DNA from: Chalara sp. BL73
Taxonomy: Eukaryota > Ascomycota > Leotiomycetes > Helotiales
Assembly: GCA_918026815.1 (NCBI GenBank)
Contig: CAKJVC010000154.1
Span: 310,001 to 374,000, forward strand
Direction: 5' to 3'
Length of the DNA: 64,000 bases
Position 1 is the first letter of the stretch, and every line of letters starts with the position of its first letter. Both the position numbers and the translations under genes were made by a program. A model generated the notes under the pieces. That model saw only the letters and a list, made by a program, of their open reading frames with translations. It did not search any database and was not told where the DNA came from. Positions 1,712 to 30,330 of this stretch are shown here, piece after piece.

Positions 1712-4007
1712 ATGGATACGCAAAATCGGCTTCCGATTTCAGCCTCGCGGAAGCGCCACCTATCCCCAGAAGAATGGGAGAAGCTCAGACCAGTCATAGA
1801 GGACTTGTACATTAGAAAGAGTCTCAGGTTCAAAGACGTGGTAACTATCCTTCGTGATGAACACGGAGTTCAGCTAAGGCAAGTTATGTTGACTTCTATC
1901 GAGCATCTGCCTAATTCTCACCTCTAGTAAGCGGCAATTTGATTATAAGATAGAACTGTGGAAATTGAAGAAAAACGCTAGCACCAGCGAGCGACGCAAG
2001 ATATTGGAAAGCCTGGCACCCAACGAACCAGTTCCGGAGCAGATTGGAACCTTCAAATTGAGCGCTGGTAAGAAGAAGCGGTGGGAACGGGAGATGAGAC
2101 GAGACCATAATAAAGCTTCGGATACTGCAAGCCCCCAATTCCAAACCAGGACAGATTGTTCTTTGACAGATGGCGGAAACGATGTTCAGCGTGCGGAAGT
2201 TGAAAATAATTGCTTGAGTATCTGGGAGAGTGCCAATATCATTAACTCTCCGAGGTTGACTACTCTCCGATGCCTATTCGATGATCTCGGAATACAAGAA
2301 GACATCGAACCACTCCCAGGCCCATGGTTAAGTCAAGAGGCAAACAGGGCCCTAAATATGGCGAATGAATATGCTGAAGATAGTCAGCATGAGCAAGCTA
2401 CTTGTCTAGGTGATGCCATGGTTAGAAATCGGACGTTTTTCTCGACTTCTGATCGAAGCGTAGTACAATATTCACGGAAACGACAAGGCATTCAAGTCAA
2501 CTCCTTCACTAGGCCGCGCATTGTTAACTCATGGTTAACCCCTTCACGTGGGCTCAGTCCTTTCCCTACCAAAACCTTACACGGGAATAGCTCGGCAACC
2601 TCAAGCTACGCACAACTAAGCCTGAGGCCAATCAAGGACAGAATATCAGCAGTTAAAGCATTTATTGCTAAGATGGAAAAGCTTGAAATACGCAATTATG
2701 CAGCTCTTGTTTATCAAAAAGAGAATTTAGCAACCCTATACTACAACAATTATCAGTACAATAAAGCTGAAATAATGTGGCTGGATATACTACAATTACA
2801 AAAGGAAACAATTGGGGCAACTCATCCAGAAACCGTAAGAACATACTTGAACTATGCCGATTGTAAAGTTATGCAAGGGGAATTGATAGACGCAACCAAA
2901 GCATTAAATATTTCCTCTCGCGAGATCATTCAAGAATTCGGCCTTGACTCTGACATTGGCATTAATTCGCTTTGTTCGATCGGTTTATTACAAACCAAAA
3001 GTCACGATTTTAAAGAGGCGGAAGCGTCCTATCGACAAGCTCTCCAAATCTCACTGGCCCGTAACGGAATGGAGCATACTACCACTGCCGACATTATGAG
3101 TTGGCTGGTTATCACCATGCGCTATAGCCAACCCATTTCTGGACACCGTCTAGCATGTATCAGAGATCTTACTCGTCAAGTACTATATCTTGATACCAAG
3201 CTTAATAGCGAAGGGGTGGCAGGCGATCTTCACAACCTAGCTTGCATTCTCGGCGATCATGGACAGTACGAGATAGCAATTTCCGCCGAAGAAGAAGCTC
3301 TCAGAGGTTACCGCATTTTATATGGGCCTGACCATTCAGAAGTTTACAAAGCTCTTCGCAATCTGGCACTCTTTCATTCTAATAAAGGGCAATATAAGAG
3401 AAGCATAGAGCTATTACAGCCCTTGCTATTTGATAAATGGCTGCAGAGAGATTTCAATTATATGCTTGATGTTGCAAACGATCTTTGGGTGGATCTTCGT
3501 GACATTCAGAGTTTCATGAAACGTGAGACGATTGTTAGACTTGCTGTATTTCTGTCAATTCATGTATTTGGCATAAACAGCAGTAAAACCTGGGATACAC
3601 TCAACGACTTGGAAGCGGCTTTAGTAGACCTAGACCGCTGGGAAGAGGCAACTGCACGAGCAGAAGAATTATATCTACATTACTATCACCAAGATGGAAA
3701 TGAATTGGAATCTGATGACACACAAGAATGGATGGAGAATCTCAACTACCTATATAATAAACAAAATATTTTTCAGGAGAAGGGGGCCATCGAGCAAATG
3801 TTCGAATGGATTCGAAAAAAGATAAACATAACCAGTACTAGGATGCTGGTGGAATATGGGATAGAAAATCCTGAAGATCTGCTATCAGAGATTGGCAAGC
3901 TTGTTCAAGAGGTTGAACAGTGGGAGGCGGAGGGTGAGGACACTGCTATCGAAGAGGGCCGGACTCAAGGTAGCACTACACGAAGTTATGCCATTCTCAC
4001 TCCTTGA
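1712..4007 (+). CDS. Clr5-domain protein with C-terminal TPR region, 2 exons
   Basis: Exons 1712-1878 and 1928-4007 give 748 residues. Residues about 18-72 form a Clr5 domain: W-E-K-L-R-P-V-I-E-x-L-Y, a KDVV..L segment, then SKRQFDYKIELWKLKKN across the splice. The 49-bp intron starts GCAAGT and ends CTCTAG, so it is a GC-AG intron; the joined frame restores the conserved (S/A)-x-xQ(F/Y)-x-x-x-x-x-x-W motif exactly. A polar linker follows, then TPR-like repeats from about residue 240 (Y..A..M....L...ETIGATHPETV, LGDHGQYEIAISAEEEALRGY). The Clr5 domain is a small helical domain widespread in ascomycetes, often in front of TPR or ankyrin arrays; its function is poorly known. No transmembrane segment or signal peptide is seen. 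A second Clr5 gene lies 3.4 kb downstream on the same strand. Confidence 0.85.
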
Positions 4008-7436: not shown

Positions 7437-10400
7437 ATGGAAAGCTCTGATTGGGAGCTCCATAAAAGCACGATCGAGCGCATTTACTTGAGAGAAGACA
7501 AGTCGCTTAGTGAGCTGATGTCCATCTTAAATTCTACTTGGAATTTTCGCGCAAGGTAGGAACGAAATTCATTATGCTGCCCACTAGTATATTACTTAAC
7601 AAGGACATAGCAAAGCGCAATACGAAAGAAAGTTCAAGGATTGGGGATTTAGAAAGTATAGGATGGGAAAGGAGAGCTGGAGGTATATCAGCAACCAGGT
7701 AGCCAAGAGAAAAAGAGAGAGCGGCAAAGACAGCGAAGTATACATAGACGGTGTTCAGTGCCCACCCGCAAAGCTCCGAAAAGAAACGGCTCGCCACGGG
7801 TTTATCTCGACGATTGAAAAGTTCCGCGCGGGTAACAATCTATGCCGATGCAAACATAAGATCGACTTTCTAATACCATATAGCTCCTTCGCCCAAAACA
7901 CCGGAAGGAATAGTCATTCGCTCACCTGGACCGTCAGCTACGAAACTCGAATGGGAGCAAACCCTTCCCTGGTTCCAGTTCCTGAGATTGGTGCGGTCAC
8001 AGAGCAATCAAGGTAACAGTAGCCAGAAGTCATTTGCATTATTTAAACTCAATATTATAGCAGGGACTATTCCGATTTTTAAGTTCGCTCCTGCAACCAC
8101 ACCTCAACCCTCCTCAATTACATCCATCGGCGCAACTTCATTCGACTCTGCCAGTCTTTGGACAAGCAAAGATGTTGCAAGACGCCTCGGCTCAATTTTG
8201 GAGTGGAATAGCACCCAGGCCCTACAAGATATCCCGAGTGGCTCTCGAACAGCCGCAGCCCTTAGCGTAATCATGCCAGAAGAGTATGAAGGACAACACC
8301 TCATCACCGCCGAGAGACTATGTAGCCCCAAAGACAGTACAGGGCTTCTAGATAAGCTTATTTTGGAGCTATTTTTACTATCTAATAACTTTACATATCG
8401 GGAGCAAAACGACGATGCGAGACTATATGATGAGCGGATCATGGGAATATTACGACGATCTGGGATGAATAGTCTTTTGCAATTAAGGCCCGTGCTCTCT
8501 ATGGAGGCGACCGCTGCGGCTGTAGCAGAGAAGCTCTTCACGAGCGCGCTACGATGCAATGACTTGGAAATAGTCCAGATGATGCTGAAAGCCGGAGTGG
8601 ATCCAGACATACTCATTGACACTCCTGAATCGTCCTATTTACTCACACCTCTGGAATTAGCAGCAAATATCAGTGACGAACAAATATCTGTTAGGATGAC
8701 CTGCCTTCTATTATCATACGGGGGACAGGTCAACAGGGGGAGGCGTCCACTATCAGCTCTCTGTCATGCAACCAAGAGAAAGCATACAGAGGTGATGAAA
8801 ATTCTTATATCTAGCGGAGCACACATCTTACCAATGTCGCTTAAACTCGCTATAGATACGAAGGATATTTTACTCATACGAATGCTTCTAGATGCCGGTG
8901 CCGATGTTAATGCAAAAGCTATCTCCGAAAGAGGCTACGAAAACGGTATGACAGCGCTCTGCATAGCTGTAAAAGCCATAGATACGGAGAATATTACGCT
9001 CGTGGAGATGCTCCTAGGTGCCGGTGCTAATGTTAATGCAAGAATTTCCGCCAGAAACAACGTCGACTACGGCATGACAGCGCTCGGTATAGCTGTAAGA
9101 AATAAGAATCTCCAATTAACACAAACACTGCTTGCCAACGGTGCAAATGTCGATGCACCGCAGCAGCCTGCTTATACATCATTGGGAAAGATGACAACAG
9201 CACTCGGTATAGCGGCTGAAACAGGAAATGCGCCAATAGCTAGGCTCCTGTTGGAGGCGCACGCAAAAGTCAATCTACGCACAGACTTATTCCTCTGTCC
9301 ACTCATGTTAGCTACTGATAAAGGGTACAATGAGGTTATTAAGCTTCTCTTAAATTCTGGCGCTGATATTCACAATGCAGTTGCGGATGGCGAGAACACG
9401 CTACTTGAGCTAGCCGCGATGCACGGGAACACAGAATTATGCATGATCCTGTTAGCTAAAGGAGCTAGAGTTAATAGAGCCATTTACGGAAACGAACGAC
9501 ATATTTCTGCGCTAATATTAGCTACAAGGCGAAATAGTATCGAAGTTGTTTCGTTGCTTTTAAGTTACGAGGTACGCGTGAACGATGTCCATCTCGGAAT
9601 AACAGCGCTTGGAGTAGCTGTAGAGGCGGGAAATTGTGAATTGGTCCAACTTTTATTACAGGCTGGAGCTACCACGATAGGGGACGGAATAACCTGCATT
9701 GGAAATATAGAAACGGTAAACCATCTAGAGCAGGCTGCAATGTTGCCGGACATTATATTGACTAGTGGAGCACACGTTCTCTCTTCTGCTATTTCTGCAG
9801 AGGATGAGGATCTGGTACAATATCTACTTAGCTATGACATTAACCTCAATATGCAACTCTGCATGGGCAATGACCCTGGCCCACTGGAGGCGGCATTCTC
9901 TAAGGGGAATATAAAGCTAGCAAAGGCCCTCATTAGCCGTGGGGCTTATATTACTGGGAGCGTGGTGTGTGCAGCTGTGTGGGAAGCACTGGGAACCGGA
10001 AACGACGCAATCGTCCAGACATTGCTCGAATTCTACAACGACTGGTGGAATCGGGTTGTGAGTCCCACCGCCGTAGACATGGCTGTCCAACAATGTAATC
10101 ATGGGCTCGTTCAATCTCTTATAGAGGCTGGGATTGATCCAACGGGAATCCCAAGAGGTGATAGGTCTTACAAATACGACACTAGGCACCACCGGGCACA
10201 GGCAGGCTGGTGGCATTGCCCCAACTACTCTGCAGACAACCCAAACTCGGTGCTAGAAACAGCAGCTAAGCTGGGCGACCGTCCAATGCTGCGGTTCCTC
10301 CTCAAGGCGACGGGGTGGACGCAGAAGTGCACCGGACGAGCCATTGTAGTTGCGATAGGCTACGAAAATGACCATCTCGTACAAGATTTATTGGACGCCG

Positions 10401-11272
10401 GAGCAGATCCAGACAGCGAAGTCCTTTATAGCTGGGGCACGAGTTCCACCCCCCTTTGTTCTGCGGTATCGATGCAACGGATCTCATTGGTACAAAATCT
10501 TCTCCAGGCTGGCGCCAGTATCAATTATCTCAGGACAGGGAACTGGGCGTGTACGGCTCTACAAGGAGCAGTACAAACCGGAAATCTGGAGCTGATGAAC
10601 ATACTCCTGGAAGCAGGTGCTGATGTTAATGCTCCGCCAGCTTCTGTGGGTGGAGCGACCGCAATGCAGGTCGCAGCGATTCAAGGGTACTTGGAAATTG
10701 CTCGTAAGTTGCTTGAAGCTGGCGCAGACGTCAATGCGGCGAGGGCGGAAATGCATGGACGGACAGCTTTAGAGGGTGCTGCAGAAAACGGTCGCATCGA
10801 CATGTTACACTTGCTCCTTAGTGAAGGGACGTTGATTGACGGGCCCGGTCGAATGCAATATATCAGAGCCGTCAAGTTTGCAGACACAAACGGCCATAGC
10901 GCTGCCGCGACACTCTTGAAATCTTACAGTCACTGGACCGAATCGGATTCTCTTCGGTATGACCAAGAATGGGTTGAAACAAACTCATATCTTGAGGCGT
11001 CTGCGCATAAAACAGGTGAGGCAACAGATGAGGCAACAGATGGGGAAATGGATCGGGAGATAGATTGGGAGGAAATGGATGAGGAAACAGATGGGGAAAT
11101 GGACGAGGAAATGGACGAGGAATGGATGGGGAAACAGATGGGGATATGGATGGGGAGATGGATGGGGAAACAGATGGGGAGATGGATGGGGAAAATGGGT
11201 GAATTACCAACATGCGAAGAAATTGAGGAGATAATGAACGAATTTCTCGGGGTAGGGCAGCCAGTAAGTTAG
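7437..11272 (+). CDS. Clr5-domain protein with long ankyrin-repeat array, 3 (or 4) exons
   Basis: Exons 7437-7555, 7611-7831 and 7884-11272 give 1242 residues. A further in-frame 48-bp intron at 8013-8060 (GTAACA...TTATAG) is possible and would give 1226. The Clr5 domain spans residues 5-60, with SKAQYERKFKDWGFRKY restored across the first intron. It is followed by the companion segment usual in Clr5-ankyrin proteins (RHGFISTIEKF, then the LPWFQFLR motif restored by the second intron). From about residue 300 to 1140 there are many ankyrin repeats of the type TALGIAVRNKNLQLTQTLL and A.GADVNA. The last about 90 residues are low complexity, first acidic (DGE/DEE) and then WMGKQMG-like, coded by one DNA repeat read in two frames. 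Ankyrin arrays bind partners; what this one binds is unknown. Confidence 0.85.
11013..11203 (+). repeat. Coding minisatellite, degenerate gatgGGGAaa-type units of about 12 bp
   Basis: The 3' end of the Clr5-ankyrin gene is a tandem array built on variants of gatggggaaaca and gatggggagatg. Upstream of about 11121 it is read as (M/T)DGE or MDEE; from the unit gaggaatgg on, which has one A fewer than its neighbours, it is read in another frame as MGKQMGRW. Confidence 0.8.
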
Positions 11273-16121: not shown

Positions 16122-17250
16122 ATGGCGCCACAAACTATCGCAATCATCGGAGGTCTGGACGCTGATCTCGTTATGATCGCAAGTAGAATTCCTGATCGAG
16201 GAGAGAGTGTTTTGGCCAACGAATATTTAGAGGCTTTGGGGGGTAAAGGTGCAAATTCCGCGATTGCAACGTACCGCACATGTCACCCAAAGCCAGAGAA
16301 CAAACAGACAACCGAGACGGAGGATGGAAACAATATCCAGGTCAAAATGATTGGCGCAGTTGGCGATGATCCGTATGGGGAGAAGTTCATTGTCGAGTTG
16401 AATAGGAATGGCGTTGACGCTTCTGGCATCGTGACGGTGCCAAACACACGTTCAAGCGTCTGCTTCGTTATGGTGGAAAGCTCGACACGCGAAAACCGAT
16501 GCCTCTTCACACTGGGTGCAACCGCAACCTGGAAGAAGGAGGATTTCATCACCGCCGAGCAGCTCGGAGGCGGCATCCGCCCTGATCTGGTAGTCGCCCA
16601 GATGGAAATCGACAAAGAGGTGGTTGAGAGAATGATTGAAACTGCTGGAGAGGCTGGAATTGAATTTTGCCTGAATGCGGCGCCAGCAACCCCTATCGGC
16701 AAGCGGTTTTATCGCTATCTTACTCATCTGCTAGTCAACGAGTCAGAAGCAGCCATAATGTCTGGCCGTGATAGGGATGAAGTCAACGAAGAGACCTGGC
16801 CGATCATCGCTCAGGAGTTTTTGAATCGTGGTGTCAAAAACGTGGTTATTACTCTGGGTGCCAAAGGTGCATTTTATGCCAACGCAACCGGAAATCTTCA
16901 CTGTCCCGCGTTTGAAACCAAAGTCAAGGATACTACTGGTGCAGGGTAAGTCCTGATTCTAAATGATGATTCTGAATTCTCACATGCATATGCTGATTGA
17001 GACAACTAGAGACACGTTCACAGGGGCATATGCCTCAAACTATCTGCGTCAGAAGTCCCAAGGAACTTGGGACATCAAGAGTGCGGTTGTACGCGCGAAT
17101 AAAGCTGCTGCAATCACGATTCAGAGCGTGGGAGCCCAGGATGGTATACCTTGGGCAGATGAGATTGATAATTTTGATGCCTCCCACAAAGTTCCCGAAT
17201 TTGGACGACGTTCAAGTTCAGCCGTAGATCGCCTTACGAAGGGGATTTGA
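16122..17250 (+). CDS. pfkB-family sugar kinase, ribokinase-like, 2 exons
   Basis: Exons 16122-16945 and 17010-17250 give 354 residues. Signature 1 is GGKGAN at residues 40-45. Signature 2 is DTTGAGDTF at 270-278, rebuilt across the 64-bp intron and containing the catalytic base Asp276 and the anion-hole Gly-Ala-Gly. The N-terminal GGLDADLVM corresponds to the substrate-binding GS-x-N-x-D segment of ribokinases. Length is close to fungal ribokinases. The likely reaction is ATP-dependent phosphorylation of ribose or a related sugar or nucleoside. Substrate is inferred from family only: pfkB members also include adenosine kinase and fructokinase. It is divergent from an MFS gene. Confidence 0.9.
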
Positions 17251-17507: not shown

Positions 17508-20365
17508 TCATGAAATAGACGAATCAGTGACATTATAAGCATGCAACAGTTCTGTTACACTGTCATGACCGTTCCTGCTCGCCCATGACAGCGCAGTCCA
17601 GCCTTGATTATCAGATGCCTCACGATTCGCTCCTTGCCTTACGAGCAGTTTTACAATTTCCTCATGTCCATTTTCAGAGGCGAATGATAGAGGGGTCTGC
17701 TCAGTATCCCGATCGACTGCCTCAATATTTGCTCCCTGATCGATGAGCATTCTCACGATCTCCGTATGTCCGTTCTCAGCGGCCCACGATAGCGGCGTTC
17801 GCCCGTGTTCTCGATCAACGATATCGATTTTCACTCCAAGATCAAGAAGTAGCTTCACGACGGCCACGTGGCCGCGGACAGCCGCCCATGATAGTGGTGT
17901 TCGCCCATATTTAGGGTCGGATTGCTCAATGTCCGCACCATGTTGATGAAGCAACAGTACAGTATCTGCGTGGCCTCTGGAAGCTGCCCAGGAGAGTGGT
18001 GTCCGACGTGAATTATCAGCTGCATCAGTTTCTGCACCATGATCAAGGAGCCGTTGTACAACACCTAGATGGCCTTTCGAAGCCGCCCATGATAGCGGCG
18101 TTCGCCCATATATCTGGTCAGCTGCCTCAATCCGTGCGCGTTGATCAAGGAGCAACTGGACGAGCGCTTCATGTCCGTTGTCGGCCGCCCATAGTAATGG
18201 CGTCTGACCATCCTCATCAACCATGTCAATGGACGCGCCTTTGTTCAGAAGAATTTTAGCAGCCTCCAAGTCACCAGTCTCAGCTGCAAAAGATAGTCGC
18301 GTCCGACCAGCGTCATTCTTCAAGTCAATGTCAATCTCATCCAAAGCAACTACTGTCCCAGAGTAAGCTAGTTGCATTTGAATAAGATGCGTGAGGATCG
18401 GATCTGTTTCAAGAGAATATTGAGACAAAGAATTATTCTCGCTTTTCCATAAGTTCCAACTTTCAATCCATTCTTGATCTAACTGCTCTGGGCAATCCTT
18501 AGGGCGAGTGTAGTCAAGATATTCGTTATCCCAGGACGAGTTTGTGCCGGACGCTGTGATAGACATAATGGTATCCCTGTCCAACAAAGACCACTTCTCT
18601 GAAGGAAGGGATATTCCCTCAACGTTCTCTCTTCCACTTGGTGGTTGGGGAACAGAATTTTCGTTCATGAGTCGCCTAATGGAGTCATGCAAGAGTGCCG
18701 AATCTCTAGATGCGCCAAGACTTTTTTGGGTAGTATTCTCAAGAGAAGGCAAAGCCATTAATGACAAGGACTTCAGGTGGATTGCGACATGATCAACAAC
18801 ACGATTGTACATATCAGCTAGTTCTCGGTTCCCATTCTCCACTAGAAGCCTTACCTCCTCGGGAATCTGTTCACAAAGTGGACAGACCAACCTATCGCGC
18901 AAGGCAATTTGTTGCTTCCTAGGAGACAGGGCGTCAAGCTGAGCTTGAGTTGGCGCGGTCGACGCACGCTCTGGATGCGACTTGAGATCTTGCATGTGTT
19001 TCCTCCACTGTAACTCCGTCTCGAAGATTTCTGGAGAGTCATGGTCGATGTCGCAATACCATACGATAGTGTGAACCTTCCGCAGCCATTCTTTCGAGTG
19101 GGCTGTTTCCATGTGGGTCTTCCATTCGTGACGATGGGTGAAAAACACTAGTGACTCGGCACAATCGGGGAATAGGCAAGCATAAGGCTTAAGATGCTCA
19201 TCAACGTGACGCTCCCAGTGGGCAGTTCTCTTTTTCTCAGATTCCCTATTTTCCAACGGCATAAAGCAAAAGGGGCACTGAACCCGTGCTTGCCCTTCGC
19301 TTGCTGACGGCACTGGTGGATACTCAAAAGCGTCATCTTGTGTACTGGATACAGTACTAATCACAGTAGTGAGAGCCGGTACTTCTTGAAATTGTAGACG
19401 CCGAAGAGTTAGGGCGTGAGGATCTGGGCGAGACGCTTTGGTTACGTCGCTTGCTAGTACACTGGAATGACCCGCTACCCTATCTGTGACTTGAAAGTTA
19501 CTACCAGGGTTGTGTTCCAGATGTCTATTCTGATGCTGTTTGGTAGAAGGTAGACAATCAGGCACACGTCTGATGGCAAGTCTTTTTGCATGGCGTTTAT
19601 TCTGCAGGAGCATCCGGCGCCGAACAGCGATGGAGTCTCCCAGCTGTTGCGACAGTCCTTTGCGGGCAGCGGGAAACTTGTAGCGTACGAAAGAGGCAAT
19701 GTCCCTGCGAAAGACTACGTCCTCTTTGGTGAGCAGGGTTGTAACGGTGTAATCAAGCTTTTTGGCGGATGCTTTCCTAATTGCTACGGCTACGAAATGT
19801 AGCCGCTCAAGTGCAGAATCAACGGCGCGACACACTTGCTGCCATTCGGAGTGGAAGATTTCTGATGGTTTGAAATTTGACTTCTCCGCATCAGAAGAGG
19901 GAGCCCACGGGTTATGGTCAACTAATGAGGTAGAAGGATACCAGTAAGCGTACCATTTGTGATAGGACTGGTAATGTGTATGTATACATACACCTATATC
20001 TAGATGTAGTATTTTGAATGGTCGATAAATGTAAACTCACTGCGATTCAAATTTCGTGAAACCATCTCCAACAACTCAATCACAGTGCTTGTTATGTCTG
20101 CCAGACCCCGCAATCTCGCATCCAGGGATGAGTTCATTAATGACAATGCTCCAGTGTAGTCAATCCAGAACAAGAAACTGTTGCGGATACCTAAGAAGTC
20201 GCAAGAAGAGCGCTTTCGGCTTTGGGGCGTGGCGGTGTCGCCCAGATCAAAGGAGTATGTGAGAGTTGTTTCATCGTTCTGAGCAACGATCTTATCGAAG
20301 GTCACCAGGCATTGGTAGGTAATATCGAATATGGCCGTTGCCATATGTTCGGTTGCCCGGTCCAT
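17508..20365 (-). CDS. C2H2-like zinc finger and ankyrin-repeat protein, 2 exons
   Basis: Exons 20365-20041 and 19921-17508 (119-bp intron, GTGAGT...CATTAG) give 912 residues. The N-terminal 230 residues are helical and basic (SFVRYKFPAARKGLSQQLG, RRRMLLQNKRHAKRL), as in a common ascomycete family. Residues about 300-470 carry finger-like Cys/His groups: CPFC...H...H, CLFPDC...H...H, WYCDID..H, then CPLC...H..IH. Eight ankyrin repeats of about 33 residues follow, several with the repeated core GRTPLSWAA..GH. No nucleotide-binding NLR domain is present. A regulatory or scaffold role is likely but unproven. The gene is head-to-head with the subtilase gene, about 260 bp apart between the start assigned here and the first ATG of that gene. 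An ATG eight codons in is an alternative start. Confidence 0.85.
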
Positions 20366-20628
20366 TTTGATAATGCAACCGGCTGTGGGAGGGATTCAAA
20401 CCGAGGCGAGCAGGTTGCATTTGAAGTTTGTGACGCCTTGGAAGCGCGTAATTTGGTGGCTGCCAGTCTGCATCCAACATCCAACAATGCATGGGTATCA
20501 CCTCCTCAGCCATTCCCATCGCCATGAATCCAACACCCGTCACTTTCTTAGTCCTTACTTCAAAGCACTCTCCTTTTCCCTGAACAGGCTTGGCTGGAGT
20601 TGTTTGCCAAAGCCCACAATATTGAGCA
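20366..20628. promoter_or_regulatory. Intergenic region of the divergent C2H2-ankyrin and subtilase genes
   Basis: Short region between divergent starts. The subtilase gene could have an undetected first exon here, since its N-terminus is poorly defined; overlapping ORFs on both strands give no decisive evidence. Confidence 0.4.
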
Positions 20629-23551
20629 ATGTTGGATCTGGCCCCAGTCTGTACGTGGTGGGGTCTCCTCCAATCCATCCACCCACTTTTCCTGTCGGCG
20701 AAAAGTCTTCCAACCATAGAGAATGTCGACCAAGCCTACGATTCTGCAACCGTTGATGTCCATCATTTGAGGAACGAGATTACAACGCTCCGAACTGATC
20801 TGAGATTTAACATCATCAAGCAGCAGCGGTTTGACATTGATCAGTTGGTTGATGATGATCGCCTTGTTGAGGAGCTCGGTTTAGATTTACACACGCTGCT
20901 GGAGGAGCTGGAGCTCTTGGTCGATCCCCAACTTCTGACTTTCGAGGAGCCGGGTGTAAGTCCTTATTCTCATACGCGCTACTTAGTATACTTTAGGTTA
21001 ATGGGTCTCACTAACACAACCTTTAATTCAACCTCTAGCGCACATTCGAACCCGAATCTCTCGCTTGCTTTCCGAGGCTCGTCGCGTTACGGAACCTTCT
21101 TCAAACCCAAGAGAATCCCGCATCAGCCAATGTCTCAGATGCATCCATCTCAACAGAGGACTTTGAATCTTCAGCGGTGACGGAAACAAACTTCTCCTCT
21201 ATACACACAGAATCGAGCTGGACCAGGAGATACTCGCCAGCCTTTGTTACACAAGTGGCCAGCTTCATCAAGTTCCCCCAAGATGCCGCGAAGATCGAGT
21301 CATGTCGGAGGACCATCAGCCGCTTTGGCTTTGCGATGGACAGGACTTTCAGCGACTCATCCGAAACCCAGACCTTAGATTACACCCCACAAGATGTGGA
21401 AGTCATTCAACACGCCCATACCTTCGCCTCTACATGCGCATCCTTGTTTTCTCAGATGGTCGACAGCACCAAATGCGGAACACCACACCAGGCGAAGCTT
21501 CATTTGTCTGGCTTCAAACAGGACCAATTGAGGATGAATATCGGCACATGCCAGGAGATGAACTGGGTTTCTGTAGTATTCACACGGTGAGTGCCACGCA
21601 TCTATGGTAGGAGGGTCTTGGCCGGCTGACAGTGTCAAAGTTCATTTGAACAACCCTCGGTGGAGCCCTTTTATTTTGACTACATATGCCCACCTGCTTC
21701 ACCACACATCGAAGGATCCAAAGTACTTCATGTCGCCTTCAATTCTGAAGGTATGTGGGCCTCAAACAATGGTGCGGGACTTGACTCACATACTCCCTTG
21801 CGTGGAGAACAGTCACTTGATCATCTCCTCACTAGCAAAGATGGCCTCACCTTGAAATATCGAAAGCTGGCGGGGGTATTGCTCGCTGCATCCATGTTCC
21901 AGCTAGGTGATAGTCCGTGGATCGAGCAGCACCTAGGATCAGAGTACATCTTTGTGCCTTCTCCAGACAACAAGCGACTTCAGCAATGGTGTCCTCGCGT
22001 GCTTTGTACTCTTGTGCCGAAAAAACACGCGATGCTTCAGAGTGACATTATCGCAGCTTTTGGTGTTCTTGTCCTAGAACTTGAGGCTGATCGCAAGGCC
22101 GACTGGATCGCTGGTGACGAAGATTGGATTTCTGGAGAGAAGTCAAACCACGTACGACTGGCTCGTGTTTTGAATACATGGGAAGACCTAGTCAGTGACG
22201 ACTACCGGACAGTCGCGAAAGCATGCCTTGAATTTGACAGCCTTATAGAGTGCCTTGATCATCCAGATATCGTTTTAGAGAGGAAGGGTCTTGCCGTAAT
22301 ATACAAGTGCATTCTCGAGCCATTGTTTCGTCATATCATGAAGAGTTTTGGGAATCTCGCCCCTCTGTTCAATGGCATGTTCGGTCCCGGTCGCAGTCTT
22401 ATGGCACCTATGAAGATCTCGCCATCCATCACTGAGAAGAGGGTGTTATTTGATGATATGGATGCCACACCCAAAAGAGAGGATCAGTAAGTTTACACAG
22501 CCTACTTCTTTATGAATCATCTGTAACAATACTGTACACAGAAGTTCAGCGTCTAAATTTCTCGATGGGCTCACCTCTTTCTTCCAAAAGATCAAATATC
22601 TGCACAACGATATCTTTAGCTTGACAAGATTCCCCACGCATGAGAAAATTCGGATTGCTGTGTTGGACTCAGGAGTAGATGATACAGACTCGGTGATTCG
22701 ACCTGCTCTCAAATTCGGACGTATTAACACCCAAAAAAGCAAGAGCTTTGTTGATCCCGCCAACGAGTGGCAACAGGACACTTATGGCCACGGGACATCT
22801 GTCACTCAGCTTCTCTTAAAGACAGCACCCGCTGCGGAGATCTATGTTGGTAAGATTTGCACAGGCAAGGTCATCAACGATGAATTCATGCCTGGAATCG
22901 CAAAAGTGGGTTTGCATCTCTTGTTATCGAGCACAGAACAAGCGCTGATGTATCCCTGCGCAGGCGATAGAATGGGCCATCGATGAATGTGACGCTCATA
23001 TCATTTCCATGTCTTTCGGTTTTGAGGATGAAAATGATCTAATTGATGCGGCATTAGATAAGGCCCTTGCCGCTGGGAAGCTTATCATTGCCGCTGCGTC
23101 AAACAACGGCGGAATCTCTGGACGTGCTAGGCCTGCACGCCAAGAGGGCGTACTCTGCATCCACGCTACAGATGGCAAGGGCAACAAGGGAAGGATGAAT
23201 CCTTCCCCTATTACCAATAAAGATAACTTTGCCACACTCGGCGTTGCGGTCCCATCTAAGTGGAAAAGCAAGGATGTATGGAAGTCTGGGACCTCCTTTG
23301 CAGTGCCCATCGCGGTGGGCTTTGCTGCAGATGTCCTAGAGTTTGCAAAGTATAAGTGTACCAATCTCAAACCAAGAAAGCTGAAGCTTCTGTATCAAAA
23401 ACAAGGCATGCAGGCAATTTTCCGAAGGATGTCAGAACAGAGGGATGGTTACGACTTTATCCATCCAGCGCGCTTGTGGAGAGATTGGCCAGGGAAGAGG
23501 GCGGAGGAACAAGCCGTGAAAGCTATTGAGGAAATTATGGAGGATCTTTAG
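20629..23551 (+). CDS. Intracellular subtilisin-like (S8) serine protease with large N-terminal region of fungal DUF7580 type, 5 exons
   Basis: Exons 20629-20955, 21039-21586, 21641-22486, 22542-22905 and 22964-23551 join in frame to 890 residues; the start is the first ATG of the frame and is uncertain. Residues 1-590 contain a helical N-terminus and then a module like the DUF7580 region found in front of fungal subtilases (DYICPPASPH, LASSM-like core, PNKRLQQWCPRVLCTL, EFDSLIECLDHPD). Residues about 605-830 are a peptidase S8 domain with the triad Asp616 (AVLDSGVD), His657 (YGHGTS) and Ser806 (SGTSFAVP), plus the oxyanion Asn in AAASNNGG. No signal peptide or propeptide is seen, so it should act in the cytoplasm. 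The 3' neighbour on the same strand, 0.7 kb away, is a gasdermin-like gene; in Podospora HET-Q2, a subtilase, cleaves and activates the gasdermin HET-Q1. Confidence 0.85.
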
Positions 23552-24267
23552 TAATAATGAGACAATTGGTCATATGAATGGCTGCCAGTTTTTGTATACT
23601 GACAGTGTCGAGTCTTCACAAATTGTGTAATTATTTACATAGTGATAAATCGGTATGTATAGGTACTACGCGAGTTGCCTTCAAGCCTTAAAAGGGGGCG
23701 GCCATTACGAAAATCGCGACTCCTTCAGTAGTCAGTCACGACTTGTCGTTGTTTAGATACCATGCAAATCATTAAAAATTGTTCAATGTTAGTAACGAGT
23801 GCTAGAAAGAGCTCGGGGAGATTAATGGTCCTGCCAGTTTCATCTGGCGCGAATGTTTTGGGGAAATGTCCAAAAACAATACGGTTTGCTGAAAGAGAGG
23901 TAGAACGTACATTTGTTATTATTTTAGCAAGGTATCTTGTATGGCCACTTACCTGGGCCTCAATAACCCAAATGCTTCAGCTTGGTTTCACACCCTCTGG
24001 CTCCTCGAGTCAAAGTGAGAGCCGCCTAATATGAAACGAAACAAATTGAAAAATCCTTGACGCAATTAAGCGCCTAGCAGAAGTATAGCAATCAATATCC
24101 TAGCTTTAATTACCACGTGGCATCAGTTTTGCCCTGTTGGATCATCCATTGCAATCACATCGCTCATTCCATCTCAGCCAACTTCTTTCATTCCTTCCTA
24201 TGCTTGTTGCTATTGTCTTTGAGCTTTACGCAAGTTTCAATCAGTTGTGGAACCAGAATTGTGCAAG
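23552..24267. other. Intergenic between subtilase and gasdermin-like genes
   Basis: 716 bp with no convincing gene. The sequence just before 24268 (gtgcaagATGa) gives the downstream start. It should hold the subtilase 3' region and the gasdermin promoter. Confidence 0.5.
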
Positions 24268-25167
24268 ATGAACTTCGGGCCCGCAGCCAACAATGCATTC
24301 AAGAAACAACAGCCGACATACCAGGTTGCCCCGAATTTCACGACTCGACCTTTCCCAAAAGGTCCACTAGATCTCGGCACGCTTGTTGAAGATCTCACGC
24401 AGTACTATCCGATTAATCAAGGCGCTCTGAATCGCGTCACCATCCCTGAGGGTCAACTCTACAACGACGTGAAGGAAGACGTCAAAGCGAGCCTCAAGAA
24501 ATCCATCAGCGGCGAGGCGAGCATTCTTGCCAAGATCCTTGACCGCAGTATTGGCGGCGATGCGAGTCTCAAAGGACAGAAAAAGGACGAAGATGTGTAC
24601 AATATTGAGAGACTGGAGACGGTGTCCTTTTATCCAAGACCAAGCTATATCAAGCAATGCCTGCAGCTCCCGGATGTGAAAAATTACAACGAAATGGCCG
24701 ACTACAAAGAGCCGGTGTATCTGATCACTGGGTTGAAGATCGCCTGGGGAGCAACCATCTCTACGGAACGCGGGCGGGATTTCGAAGGCAAGGCGGAGGG
24801 AGGAGCTCACACATTGGTTGGACCTGTTAATTTACAGGTCAAGGCTCAAGCTAGAATCTCCAGTGAGTCGGAGGTGGTGTCGTCGTTTGGCAAGCCGGCA
24901 GATTTCGTGCTGGGTATCCGAGTGCAGAAGATATATCATAAGAGGGCCTTCCTCATCGGTCAACGAGCCCTTACAGTCGAAAGGGTAACTAAAAATGCTG
25001 TATTGGTGGATGATGATGATGAGCCTCAGCGGGGAGAATTGGCTGATGAAATTGAATTCGTGACTGCGGATCTGAGTGAAGAGGAGGTAGGGGCTTTAGT
25101 TCCTTGGACAGGCCATGATTCGAAGGGCGAAGATGAGATTTGGCTTCTTCCTCCCAGTGCTTTTTAG
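24268..25167 (+). CDS. Fungal gasdermin-like protein (HET-Q1/RCD-1 type candidate), single exon
   Basis: The frame codes for 299 residues from the ATG at 24268; an upstream in-frame GTG is not used. The N-terminus MNFGPAANN with LDLGTLVEDL at 35-44 and the central segment EPVYLITGLKIAWGA at 148-162 follow the pattern I know from fungal gasdermin-like proteins. These run about 250-300 residues, have a pore-forming N-terminal domain, and carry only a short C-terminal inhibitory tail. Alternating polar and hydrophobic stretches (residues 148-235) would be beta strands. Residues 248-299 are very acidic (DDDD at 248-251, EEEV near 271), a good candidate for the removable tail. No signal peptide. 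The product would permeabilise the cell's own membrane after proteolytic cleavage. The adjacent subtilase gene supports this reading. Identification is by motif memory, not by search. Confidence 0.72.
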   Translation: MNFGPAANNAFKKQQPTYQVAPNFTTRPFPKGPLDLGTLVEDLTQYYPINQGALNRVTIPEGQLYNDVKEDVKASLKKSISGEASILAKILDRSIGGDASLKGQKKDEDVYNIERLETVSFYPRPSYIKQCLQLPDVKNYNEMADYKEPVYLITGLKIAWGATISTERGRDFEGKAEGGAHTLVGPVNLQVKAQARISSESEVVSSFGKPADFVLGIRVQKIYHKRAFLIGQRALTVERVTKNAVLVDDDDEPQRGELADEIEFVTADLSEEEVGALVPWTGHDSKGEDEIWLLPPSAF

Positions 25168-25391: not shown

Positions 25392-26853
25392 TCAGAAGAC
25401 AGTCCCATCGCTCTTGATGAGAATAGGACTTGATTTTGTTAGTGGTCTTAGTTTTGCCGCAATTTCACGCCCAGATTTCCATGTACCAGCCTCAAGTAGT
25501 TGTGCCATGGTCAAATGAACATCGCCGCCCATGCGGAATTGAATCCTATTGTACAGACTATCAATGAGCACCAATGTCATTGCCCTCCACTCAACGATAA
25601 CATCATCTCCTGCTTCAAAAAGCGGCAGGTCTCCACCCGATGCTTTCAAGCCTCGATCATGTGCCTCCTGTTTCAAGAGTAGAACGCCGAGATCAACAAA
25701 AAGACCGCCGTTACGGTATTCCGCCAAAGCCGTAAGATATTCGGCATTGGCCCATTCCTTACCCAGTACCCTCTGAAAAGGGACCATAAGGGAGTAGGTG
25801 AGCCACTGAGTGAGTTTGTGAAAAGGCTGAATGTCTTTGGCAATAGCATCCGGACTGCTGGATGTTGCTCCATTATTCAGAGTAGACAACGGCCAAGCAT
25901 CCCCGATGGGGTGACCACCAATAGTCGTTCGATCTTTAGGCCATACAGGAATGAGAAGATTTTGAAGAATATCCCATAGAAAAAGGACATCGAGCTTAGA
26001 AGACTGGCCCGTCGATTCTATTAGATAGTCTAGGGATTTGTTAGCAAAATCTCCGACTATTCAGGAGAGTATCGGCAGTTTACCGACGAGGTTGCCTGGG
26101 CGTCCGTTGGCTCCAAATACATGGGGATAGGCAAGCAGTGATTTTCCCAGGCTTCTTAGGAGAGCAGCACGAGAATCTACTCCTTGCATAGGGTTACTAT
26201 CCGAAACTTGGAAGCCATTCGCAAGCGTGATGGTTTCTAGTCGTTCTAATCCCTTTCCTAAAGGCATTAAAAGTAAGTATGTGTGCGTAGATGCCGGATA
26301 GGAGGAATTACCGTCCACCATTGGGATTGTTCCTACTCCTGAGGTGGTAAAAGTCAAGGCGTTGAACATCTGAAGGCTGGCGACTGCAATTCCTTCACTT
26401 CTTTCGTAGACTTGACCTGTGGTACGCTCAGTGTATCGCCAATGATCCCCAGCACCAGCATCCAAGAGGACGGAAACGAAAAACAGGTCAATGAGGCGAC
26501 GAGTCAGCTCAACTTTGTCGCATCCCTCTTTCTCCCATACCTTCATTATGTTGGCGATACGCGGCACGTTCCCCACCTCAAAATGCTGCCAGCGCCCATG
26601 AGGTGGGATTAAATGGAACTTATCAGGACCAAAATCCCGCTGGTAGAGAATATGTCAGTCTACGCAGCTAGAAGTGGGAGCATTTTTGAGTGCCAACCTT
26701 AATGACAGAAGCAACGAAATCAACTGCATCGTCGAGTTTATCTTCTCGAAGCTCAAAATTACTCAGATTCCCGGATTTCGCGGCATCCCGCACAACTTTA
26801 GCACGGTCACGGATTGCCTGTAGAGAAAGCAGATATTTGACTTGCGAATCCAT
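25392..26853 (-). CDS. urc4: DUF1688 protein, Urc4/Urg3-type uracil catabolism factor, 4 exons
   Basis: Exons 26853-26698, 26639-26312, 26257-26084 and 26029-25392 give 431 residues, the usual family length. Diagnostic stretches are YLLSLQAIRDRAKVV at the N-terminus, IPPHGRWQHFEVG restored across intron 1, FTTSGVGTIPMVDGKGLERL across intron 2, RPGNLVDYL restored by intron 3, and IGDAWPLS near the C-terminus. All three introns are 54-58 bp. Intron 3 must end at 26030 (branch site GCTAAC); stopping at the nearer AG would give a 27-bp intron. URC4 is needed for pyrimidine use through the fungal URC pathway; its chemistry is not fully settled. Intron 2 is a multiple of three without stops, so retention would be silent in frame. 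Confidence 0.88.
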
Positions 26854-27640: not shown

Positions 27641-30330
27641 GTGGAGGGGAACACGCTGAAGAGCAAGAACAGCGGCAAGATCTAGCACAAAACCTATAAG
27701 CGTGATATCAGTAGCTGGCGCTCCGGCGAGACCCCAACCGAACCATTAAGTCCAATTGAAGCCAGACGCCAGACGCTTCGAAGCTGAGAAGGCTCTAATT
27801 TCGAGCTACCAAACACCTGTTAGCGAGCCTAAAGACCTCGAACAACTTATAGGCAAAGCAAAAGACCATCTCAAGGAGAAGGCCGGCGGAAACGGAAAGA
27901 AAAACGACTCGTCCTTTGAAGGCACGCTCCACGCCAAAGACACTGACCCCGAATGGCCGCCGCTATCTCTCGTAGATCTGCCAGGCTTAACCTCATCACC
28001 AAACCCACAACAAACCGAGAAAAATGTGAAGATAGTCAACGACCTGGTAACCAAATGCATAAAGAACCCAAAGGGCATTATTCTAGGAGTCATCTCTGCA
28101 AGTTATGAGCTTCCTATTCAAAAAATTCTGAGCATGATCAGAGCACACGATCCATCGGGCAAGCGCACTGTTTGTGTCGTAACAAAGCCTGACAAGGCTT
28201 CCGCTAAACCCGACAGCTTGCCACAATTTGTCTAGTACGCTCAAACACGCTTCCAACCTACCGCTTTAAATTAGGCTAGCACGTTGTGACGAATCGCGGA
28301 CACAATGCTCGCAGCCAAACAATGGATGATAGAGATAAGACGGAGAAAGATTTCTTTGCGCAAGCTCCCTAGGGTGGTAGTCTTCACCGGGAGCAGCTTG
28401 GCATTAAGAAGCCTCGTGATCGTCTAAGTACTTTGCTTGAACATTACCCTCGCACTCAAATGCCTGAAGTCCTCAAGCAAATCAAAGATACACTCAATGA
28501 ATCCCAAAAATAGCTTTCGAAGCTTAGGTCAACTCGATCCACAAGTGAGGACCAGAGGCAGCATATTACCATCAACCAACGGTTTGAGAACCTCGTGGGA
28601 CAAGCAATAAATAGGCATTATGATGTTCCTTCGTTCTTTCTTCCAAAGCTCCCAGAATCAGATCCACGGAAACTCAGCGCCTTGCCGCAGAATCTGAATA
28701 GAGCTTTGCAAAAAGTATGCATGAGAAGAGTCATGCAAAGGATATTGTGGACGACATATTGCCTAGCTTGCAAAAAATGATTTCCAACCGTGCGTTTTCT
28801 GTCTCTCACGCAAGAACAAAGGAATGGAGCTCATCAGCTTTCCCATCTTCCGCCCATCATTTATTCCTTGATCCGTCTCAGCCTTGGAAAGCACTTGCGA
28901 CAGAGCACTTAGAGAAAGTTTGGCGGGTTTTTGTCACCCATCTTTTGGTTGTCTCGGATAACGTTACGTCGCCAGAGGCTGCTACTGCACTCCGTCGAGA
29001 GGTAATACCCGACGTAGTTGACCATCGCCACACCGAGTTATGGAGAAGCTTGAAGAGCTTCTGAAGCCGCGTAAGAAAAGCCACCCTATCACTTACGATA
29101 GGCCTTACGTTGAAAGCTCTAGAAATCCAGTCAAGGCCGATGTTAAAGCCAGGCTGGTAAAATATCAGCGGCAGAATGCATCAAATAATAAAAATTGAGA
29201 TTCAGAGATATCTCAAGGTCTTCACGTTGACCAGGTGATCAGCGCGCTAAAACTTGATGCAAAGGATATCAAGGAGATAGACTGTACTGATATTCTCAAT
29301 AGCATACAGGCATATTATCAGGTATGTTTTCCGTCCAAGATCTCATTTCTCAAAGTGCCACCTTATCGACTCCTAACTTTCTATTAGGGCGCATTACGCA
29401 TGTTCATCGATAACATAGTAGTTCTAGCAGTAGAAGGCTGTGTCGTCGGCGGGTTGGAAAATATATTTAACGCGACAGCGGTTGTGAACATAGATAAGCA
29501 GAAACTTCGTGTTCTTGGAGGAGAATCAGAGGAAGCTCAAGCTGAGCGTTTCGAATTACAGCAAAAGGCCACAGTTCTTCAAGATGCTCAGAGAGAATGT
29601 CGCCGAGCGGGTAAGATTAGCAAGATAGCTTCTTAGAAAGAAACGACCAACATTACCATGACAAAAGGAGTGCTTCAAGAACACCAATCCGACATCAGTT
29701 TGGGTTCCAAGATCACAAAGACATCTAGAACTCAGATGCCTACCTCTGTACTCTCTCAGCCACAATCGCACACCATCGACAACTACGAGCTTGTTCTTTT
29801 TTTTTCGAATCCTACGAATGGGGCAAGTACCTCTGCCTCACTCTTTGGTGGAGCACAGCCATCAACCTCCGGTGGCTCCTTATTTTCTACGAGCTCTTCG
29901 ACACCTGCACCAACTACAGGTCCATCTAAAGACTCAGGTGGATCTTTTGGAAGTAACCATTTTGGGAGCTCTTCAATGTTTCGTCAAAACCGGGCATTGG
30001 CTCACCTCCAGGGAGTAAATTAGCTTCTGCTTCGACAACAGCCTCACTTTTTTGGAGTAGTTCAACAGCGGGATGAGATACGCGGCCGATTGGTAGTCTA
30101 TTTAGCAGCTCCTTAACTTCTAAGAGCTCCTTTGGAAGTACCAGCAAGAATAGATCAAGTAATATTCCCCTATTACAGCCATTTGATGCTGCAAAGTTTG
30201 CGAGCAACCTCCAATACGATCCTATTAGCAACTCTGAGCTGTTGCTAAACCAATTCCAGATTCTTCCAATATACATGAGTAATGTCTTGTCATTTGAAGT
30301 AAGCATTGATATCGATTAGCATGATAGTAT
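27640..30330 (+). pseudogene. Dead dynamin-like GTPase gene with FG-rich nucleoporin-like tail
   Basis: The GTPase part keeps the G3 motif DLPGL (about 27978) and G4 TKPD (about 28184), but the expected P-loop upstream is eroded to a remnant around SGK followed by stops (about 27670). The middle domain is readable as HVVTNRG, FFAQAP, TQMPEVLKQIKDTLNESQK and FENLVGQAI, interrupted by TAG codons at 28277 (expected Trp), 28370 and 28511 (expected Gln or similar). A GED-like segment follows after an intron-like break (GALRMFIDNIVVLAVEG, about 29390). From 29800 to 30300 the reading changes to SLFGG, GGSLFST and FGSSS repeats ending in NQFQILPIYMSN-like sequence, similar to FG nucleoporin regions. 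Dynamin-like GTPases remodel membranes; this copy cannot make an intact protein. Confidence 0.75.

Follow-up and report, generated by a model that had tools for sequence, protein, structure and literature searches.

A candidate three-gene cell-death module with a subtilase, a gasdermin and a divergent C2H2-ankyrin gene in Chalara sp. BL73

Genes at the Locus

The stretch of DNA analyzed here, hereafter the window, comprises 64,000 nucleotides of the genome of the fungus Chalara sp. BL73 (G000:C133:310001-374000). The genome contains 58,659,784 bases in 199 contigs; C-numbers denote its contigs and L-numbers denote loci taken from it. All genome-wide counts refer to this one genome, and the gene models were made without transcripts. 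Three neighboring genes of the window, encoding a protease with a domain of unknown function (DUF7580), a gasdermin-like protein and, on the opposite strand, a protein with a C2H2 zinc-finger region and ankyrin repeats, form a candidate cell-death module, an assignment that seems rather probable from their sequences.

The protease gene (20629..23551, forward strand) encodes a protein of 890 aa in five exons (20629-20955, 21039-21586, 21641-22486, 22542-22905, and 22964-23551). Its splicing was chosen by the authors to give GT-AG introns in phase, with alternatives for intron 2, and the start codon, adopted from an earlier reading of the DNA letters (the sequence-only reading), is tentative. 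The 890-residue S8 protease with an Asp/His/Ser triad described in that reading was recovered in the five-exon model. The protease domain occupies residues 609-838 (22645..23392, forward strand, with one intron inside; Pfam Peptidase_S8, E 1.1e-14) and contains the motifs VLDSGVD (614), YGHGTS (655), and SGTSFA (803). The closest solved relatives of this domain are subtilisins, the best of them being subtilisin BPN' (9.6e-17). The DUF7580-like region, also expected from the sequence-only reading, was located at residues 237-520 (21420..22325, forward strand, with an intron inside; Pfam E 6.6e-24) and is putatively kinase-like. The N-terminal segment encoded by exon 1 (20629..20955, forward strand) is weakly similar (16-23% identity) to the corresponding part of other DUF7580 proteins. 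Comparison of the N-terminal profile A3 with the PDB yielded 49 sequences up to E 10, none of them HeLo or MLKL, and no known fold was recognized by sequence. Since the A3 profile has no HeLo or MLKL match, a four-helix killer domain at the N-terminus of strong DUF7580 proteins is not claimed.

The protease stop codon is followed after 716 bp, on the same strand, by an intact intronless gene encoding 299 aa (24268..25167); this agrees with the gasdermin-like protein that had been placed 0.7 kb after the protease. Its pore-forming domain, matching RCD-1 and HET-Q1 in the alignments, covers approximately residues 17-226 (24316..24945, forward strand). Beyond the end of this domain near residue 226, there is a C-terminal tail of 73 residues with a net charge of -13 (24946..25164, forward strand). 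The acidic tail is presumed to be inhibitory and to be removed by cleavage at a putative site.

A profile search had been proposed for checking the gasdermin identity. The profile of three intact gasdermins (those of the window, C77, and C84) matched nine PDB sequences at E up to 10. Four of them were RCD-1 sequences, with RCD-1-2 as the best match (4.2e-11), followed by RCD-1-1 (6.8e-11), and HET-Q1 was found with an E of 3.9e-5; bacterial gasdermins accounted for two more (0.19 and 0.25), and the remaining two sequences, at 0.56 and 1.6, were unrelated. As a control for circularity, a profile was built from the C77 and C84 gasdermins only, with the window sequence left out. From the PDB, it retrieved RCD-1-1 (2.7e-4) together with RCD-1 entries of lower significance and three sequences of no relation (0.14 to 0.89), and its comparison with the window protein in the hhalign program gave a probability of 97.1% and an E of 7e-11. 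In addition, the PADLOC model of bacterial gasdermins (bGSDM) matched the C77 (5e-4) and C84 (0.0078) proteins and was the single family matched by either paralog; the single PADLOC match of the window gasdermin was an unrelated Cas7 model (0.0056). The paralogs also carry tails beyond the pore domain, of 70 residues with a charge of -5 in C77 and of 77 residues with a charge of -16 in C84. A search with the gasdermin alignment in collections of genomic and viral contigs gave 16 and 75 pattern matches, respectively, of which none was confirmed as a relative. These data support the assignment of the 299-residue open reading frame to fungal gasdermins by homology to the RCD-1/HET-Q1 pore-forming domain.

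Gasdermin Copies and Their Protease Neighbors

A genome search with the window gasdermin (E up to 10) revealed four further places. The copies in C77 (5.2e-12) and C84 (4.1e-5) are intact, the copy in C80 (1.4e-12) has a stop codon inside, and that in C147 (2.4e-4) has two stops. Searches with the C77 and C84 gasdermins added one weak place, C129:1644479, found with the C77 query and taken as a chance match (E 0.47 over 55 residues). The gasdermin profile applied to all frames of 70 loci and of the window gave matches confined to the five known places.

Peptidase_S8 was detected at 36 places of the genome, with exons counted apart. An S8 neighbor accompanies each of the three intact gasdermin genes (at 0.7 kb in the window, and likewise in C77 and C84), and the chance that each would have one within 5 kb is about 1e-7, a rough estimate for which 30 S8 genes were assumed. 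The contigs of the two broken copies, C80 and C147, contain no S8 place. In C77, a DUF7580 frame is followed by S8 frames of the same strand, with overlaps between the frames; in a splice-free reading, they are presumably one gene, which lies tail to tail with the gasdermin gene, the stop codons being 1 nt apart. In C84, the S8 gene is located divergently upstream of the gasdermin gene; the frame ahead of S8 has no Pfam match and is presumed to be the N-terminal part of the same protease.

Mining of 400 genomes yielded about 1,900 genes, and a protease gene is found in a cluster with about 80% of fungal gasdermin genes, S8 accounting for about 63% and CHAT for 19% (PMC10197012, accessible in part), in line with the earlier statement that many fungal gasdermin genes lie beside protease genes. 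The window protease has the features by which HET-Q2-like (Q2L) proteases are recognized, namely, a subtilase domain with Asp/His/Ser motifs and an adjacent gasdermin gene. Both the profile matches and the S8 genes at the three intact gasdermin loci support the HET-Q2/HET-Q1-type pair put forward in the sequence-only reading, and the protease-gasdermin pair of the window is, as judged by homology and gene order, a further member of this known arrangement, with cleavage as a prediction.

A phylogenetic tree of S8 frames was constructed from loci that covered 30 of the 36 S8 places. Of the 15 frames reaching an E of 1.7e-4 or lower, 14 were included (L029 was left out). The three gasdermin-linked proteases fell outside both other groups, which contained five frames (support 100/99) and six frames (97/94). 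They did not themselves form a supported clade, and the program warned of long branches. The five-frame group looks like secreted subtilisins, a label given by the authors. The six-frame group (C10, C54, C88, and C112; L024-L026, L033, L041, and L040) is marked by GSS as the active-site motif, and its flanks, where examined, gave no gasdermin match.

Since the best matches of the gasdermin are RCD-1 proteins and not HET-Q1, it might act, like RCD-1, through allelic interaction without cleavage, the protease then having another substrate. The known RCD-1 proteins, however, have 257 and 244 residues according to the accessible text of a 2025 review (PMC12881547), versus 299 residues with a 73-residue tail in the window gasdermin, and an S8 gene adjoins each of the three intact copies; this explanation is considered very improbable.

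Other genes were observed near the gasdermin copies. In C77, about 0.8 kb separate the start of the gasdermin gene from a HET-domain frame (L003:3045-3635). Downstream of the gasdermin gene in C84, at a distance of about 0.4 kb and on the other strand, a protein of the NACHT type (NPHP3_N, DUF7791; L011:456-3224) is encoded, and a HET-NACHT-ankyrin frame (L013:3262-6447) is found about 3 kb from the broken C147 copy. Thus, gasdermin loci are placed amid receptor-like genes.

Recurrent Head-to-Head Pairing of C2H2 and DUF7580 Genes

The third gene of the module encodes the C2H2-ankyrin protein (17508..20365, reverse strand) and is divergent from the protease gene; its exon model, composed of frames 17508-20036 and 20000-20365, is tentative. 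The two start codons are separated by a head-to-head interval of 263 bp (20366..20628), which is possibly a shared promoter. The ankyrin repeats are located at 17544..18326 (reverse strand; Ank_2, E 2.1e-63). The C2H2 zinc-finger region (18684..19316, reverse strand), used as a query, was recognized by eye from its Cys/His spacing and has no Pfam match. This head-to-head gene and the genome-wide pairing described below are new relative to the sequence-only reading.

Two queries gave 19 distinct C2H2 places in the genome: the window region found 10 places (E up to 0.001) and the C2H2 region of the C77 neighbor found 16 (E up to 0.01). The whole C2H2-ankyrin frame was of little use as a query because ankyrins dominated its matches (at least 93, with 64 of 590 candidates scored). 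DUF7580 was found at 20 places. According to a pairing script, 13 of them lie no more than 6 kb from a C2H2 place, with divergent orientation in 12 cases and tandem orientation in one, versus 0.08 expected. All 11 DUF7580 places scoring above 38 bits are among the 12 divergent pairs, and the twelfth, in C145, scores 28.7. Start-to-start distances at four loci are 263 bp in the window, about 257 bp in C67, about 385 bp in C63, and 423 bp in C118, the start codons of C67 and C63 being guessed from the frame. The DUF7580 sequences of ten other loci show 12-20% identity to the window copy; the presence of the pair at 12 loci despite this divergence indicates that the C2H2/DUF7580 link has survived much sequence change. 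In the literature searched, mostly without full texts, no description of this pairing was found.

Another head-to-head C2H2/DUF7580 pair is present on the contig of the window (G000:C133:292622-296375, with L051 as the DUF7580 part), about 32 kb to the left of the window C2H2 match. The C2H2 frame of this pair is 1749 aa long.

The contents of the C2H2 partners beyond the C2H2 region were read at five of the 12 loci (the window, C77, C118, C63, and C67). In the C118 partner, the frame encoding C2H2 also contains a P-loop region, which matches NB-ARC (1.7e-4; 21.4 bits at a cut-off of 23.5) and DUF7779 (1.6e-27). In C63, NB-ARC is found above the cut-off within the same 882-residue frame as C2H2. 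In C67, NB-ARC is matched in a different frame of the C2H2 strand, 1.1 kb further downstream, and both matches probably belong to one gene. In C77, the frame that follows the C2H2 frame contains a kinase match (37 bits), and the two frames are presumed to be one gene. The presence of NB-ARC within C2H2 partners means that the C2H2 family includes proteins resembling NOD-like receptors (NLR).

The domain lists, compared by reading, contain at least 85 NB-ARC places, a lower bound that does not include the C118 region. Among them, only those of C67 and C63 have a DUF7580 place of more than 38 bits within 6 kb, and both closely follow the C2H2 match on its strand. The list for Pkinase contains at least 137 places (122 of 343 candidates scored) and does not include the kinase of the C77 partner; none of those listed has such a DUF7580 place as a neighbor within 6 kb.

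DUF7580 as a Putative Kinase-Like Domain

The DUF7580 profile (11 members) was compared with the PDB, and all 30 sequences matched up to E 10 were kinases or pseudokinases, representing four proteins only: IRAK4 (26 sequences, best 0.0025), MLKL (2 sequences, best 0.013), NFR5, and BIK1. Eight of the nine weaker DUF7580 places, some of them cut by the flank, were scanned with Pfam. In three of these (L057, L061, and L062), DUF7580 and Pkinase were found over the same stretch, and two of the eight proteins (L057 and L061) contain a HeLo domain. On these comparisons, DUF7580 can be considered kinase-like with moderate confidence. In kinases, an HRD motif is expected at a position where the DUF7580 alignment, as read by the authors, has a segment resembling PWL...W..DI.F; catalysis by DUF7580 therefore looks unlikely from the alignment. 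Since the region appears kinase-like, a regulatory role is plausible. A review, accessible in part, mentions proteases controlling gasdermins that are fused to "predicted kinase-like domains" (PMC12881547).

Two domain orders were observed among these proteins. L057:331-2121 and L061:322-2193 have HeLo followed by the region with DUF7580 and the sub-cut-off Pkinase match, an order similar to that of MLKL. In L055:1381-3555 and L056:1450-3603, a single frame encodes a kinase domain and, after it, a DUF7580 region, an order resembling a kinase-pseudokinase tandem. In the DUF7580 tree, none of the eight inner branches is well supported, so that the S8 fusion may have arisen once or twice.

Proposed Mechanism

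The gasdermin identity, the triad-bearing protease domain, the S8 genes at all three intact gasdermin loci, and the recurrent C2H2/DUF7580 pairing, all read from the sequences, would be best explained by a self-contained regulated-cell-death module of three genes, which we hold to be fairly probable. The divergent C2H2-ankyrin protein would be the probable receptor that senses a trigger, perhaps heterokaryon incompatibility or defense, and would act on the DUF7580-S8 protein encoded by its head-to-head partner. The kinase-like DUF7580 part may relay activation to the presumably intracellular subtilase, which would clip the short acidic C-terminal tail from the neighboring gasdermin. The freed N-terminal domain would then assemble membrane pores and cause cell death, as with HET-Q2 acting on HET-Q1. 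The protease-gasdermin output thus seems grafted onto a recurrent head-to-head pair of a receptor and a kinase-like protein.

The third component is suggested by the recurrent head-to-head pairing. A system of two genes of the HET-Q2/HET-Q1 type would do without it: the protease would sense through DUF7580, and the C2H2-ankyrin gene would be an unrelated neighbor retained from an old gene order. Known systems are two-gene clusters as far as the accessible text of PMC10197012 goes, and the proteases themselves are described as sensors in the available parts of PMC12881547. The C84 contig contains neither a C2H2 nor a DUF7580 place, which indicates that the C2H2/DUF7580 sensor pair is dispensable for some S8-gasdermin systems and is thereby a point against the three-gene module. 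This simpler arrangement is nevertheless regarded as unlikely in the window in view of the persistence of the head-to-head pair at 12 loci with so little DUF7580 identity to the window copy.

Further results weigh against the three-gene module or its parts. Pfam reports no family up to E 1 for the 299-residue protein, and when this protein alone was compared with the PDB (177,635 distinct sequences), RCD-1-1 ranked first with a weak E of 0.021. The profile of the C77 and C84 gasdermins did not reach HET-Q1 up to E 1, the bGSDM model of PADLOC did not match the window gasdermin, and the AlphaFold2 model, made from the single sequence without an alignment, was discarded for its predicted local distance difference test (pLDDT) score of 31. 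All Pkinase matches overlapping DUF7580 are below the Pfam cut-off. The window C2H2-ankyrin gene (17508-19613) shows ankyrins and no nucleotide-binding family up to E 1 in Pfam and is therefore not classed as an NLR. Six of the 19 C2H2 places have no DUF7580 neighbor, and two of the 12 divergent loci supplied the C2H2 queries. In addition, the 12 divergent loci are probably related by descent and may be duplicates of one ancestral pair and not 12 independent events, so their count shows durable co-inheritance and not independent assembly.

At ten of the 12 divergent loci, no gasdermin match adjoins the pair, and DUF7580 (PF24476) is not named in the literature searched. Both observations would also fit an old bidirectional C2H2/DUF7580 pair with a non-immune task, to which S8 and gasdermin genes became chance neighbors at two loci. 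Two C2H2 partners, and probably a third, include NB-ARC in their frame, and two of the eight weak DUF7580 proteins scanned contain the HeLo domain of cell-death proteins; these findings speak against such a task, and we find this origin hardly probable.

The three-gene module may be a case of something wider. It is conceivable, though on balance doubtful, that fungi possess a general head-to-head immune chassis, in which a C2H2 receptor with an exchangeable sensing part (NB-ARC, ankyrin, perhaps kinase) is paired with a DUF7580 pseudokinase that has an exchangeable output, here a fused protease plus a gasdermin. In the accessible part of the 2025 review, the control of gasdermin-activating fungal proteases is left to future research (PMC12881547); the C2H2-ankyrin gene of the recurrent pair is a candidate regulator of such a protease. 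For DUF7580, a domain of unknown function, a concrete hypothesis is gained, that of a kinase-like relay.

As for the surroundings of the module, a pfkB carbohydrate kinase gene (window 16122-16949) and a DUF1688 gene (25392-26654), both identified with Pfam, flank it, and the module may be an insertion between metabolic genes. Elsewhere in the window, there are a long ankyrin frame (7874-11272), a TPR frame (1893-4007), and a dynamin-like fragment (27750-28235), which are possibly parts of other receptor-type genes.

Comparison with Known Systems

The window locus resembles HET-Q2/HET-Q1 of Podospora anserina and the Q2L protease-gasdermin clusters in having an S8 gene beside a fungal gasdermin gene, a short C-terminal tail in the gasdermin, and a multidomain protease that is thought to sense. 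The cleavage site of HET-Q1 is marked by residue F238 (PMC12881547, accessible in part); extrapolated from the alignment with HET-Q1, a site near residues 240-250 would be expected in the window gasdermin. The window protease differs in carrying DUF7580, an architecture that may be among the 18 mentioned in the accessible part of PMC10197012, and its gene stands head to head with a C2H2-ankyrin gene of a recurrent family. RCD-1 of Neurospora crassa has a homologous gasdermin domain and is the best PDB match. It is activated on meeting its other allele, with no protease, according to the available text of PMC12881547.

Similarity was also noted with MLKL and the fungal HeLo/HELL-kinase proteins, since the DUF7580 profile matches the MLKL pseudokinase and two DUF7580-like proteins have HeLo. 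In contrast to MLKL, the N-terminus of strong DUF7580 proteins has no HeLo or MLKL match at the sequence level, and a protease forms the C-terminal part of the window copy. Bacterial gasdermin-protease systems likewise combine a protease and a gasdermin, and the C77 and C84 paralogs match bGSDM. They differ from the window genes, which are eukaryotic, include a protease gene with introns, and have a candidate sensor on the opposite strand.

Plant head-to-head sensor/helper NLR pairs are alike in consisting of divergent receptor and partner genes with a short start-to-start interval. In plants, however, the partner is an NLR, whereas in the window it is a putative kinase-like DUF7580 protein. 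In a 2025 survey of Sordariales, head-to-head NLR-NLR pairs were rare, 13 of 225 two-NLR clusters (PMC12258605, accessible in part). As read by us, the criteria in the accessible text of that survey, based on NLR clusters, would leave pairs of an NLR and a non-NLR uncounted. The general chassis, if it exists, would be the fungal equivalent of the sensor/helper pairs known in plants and would lie outside the scope of NLR-NLR pair surveys; should the pairing extend to other fungi, receptor/partner genes in head-to-head order would be a theme wider than plant NLRs.

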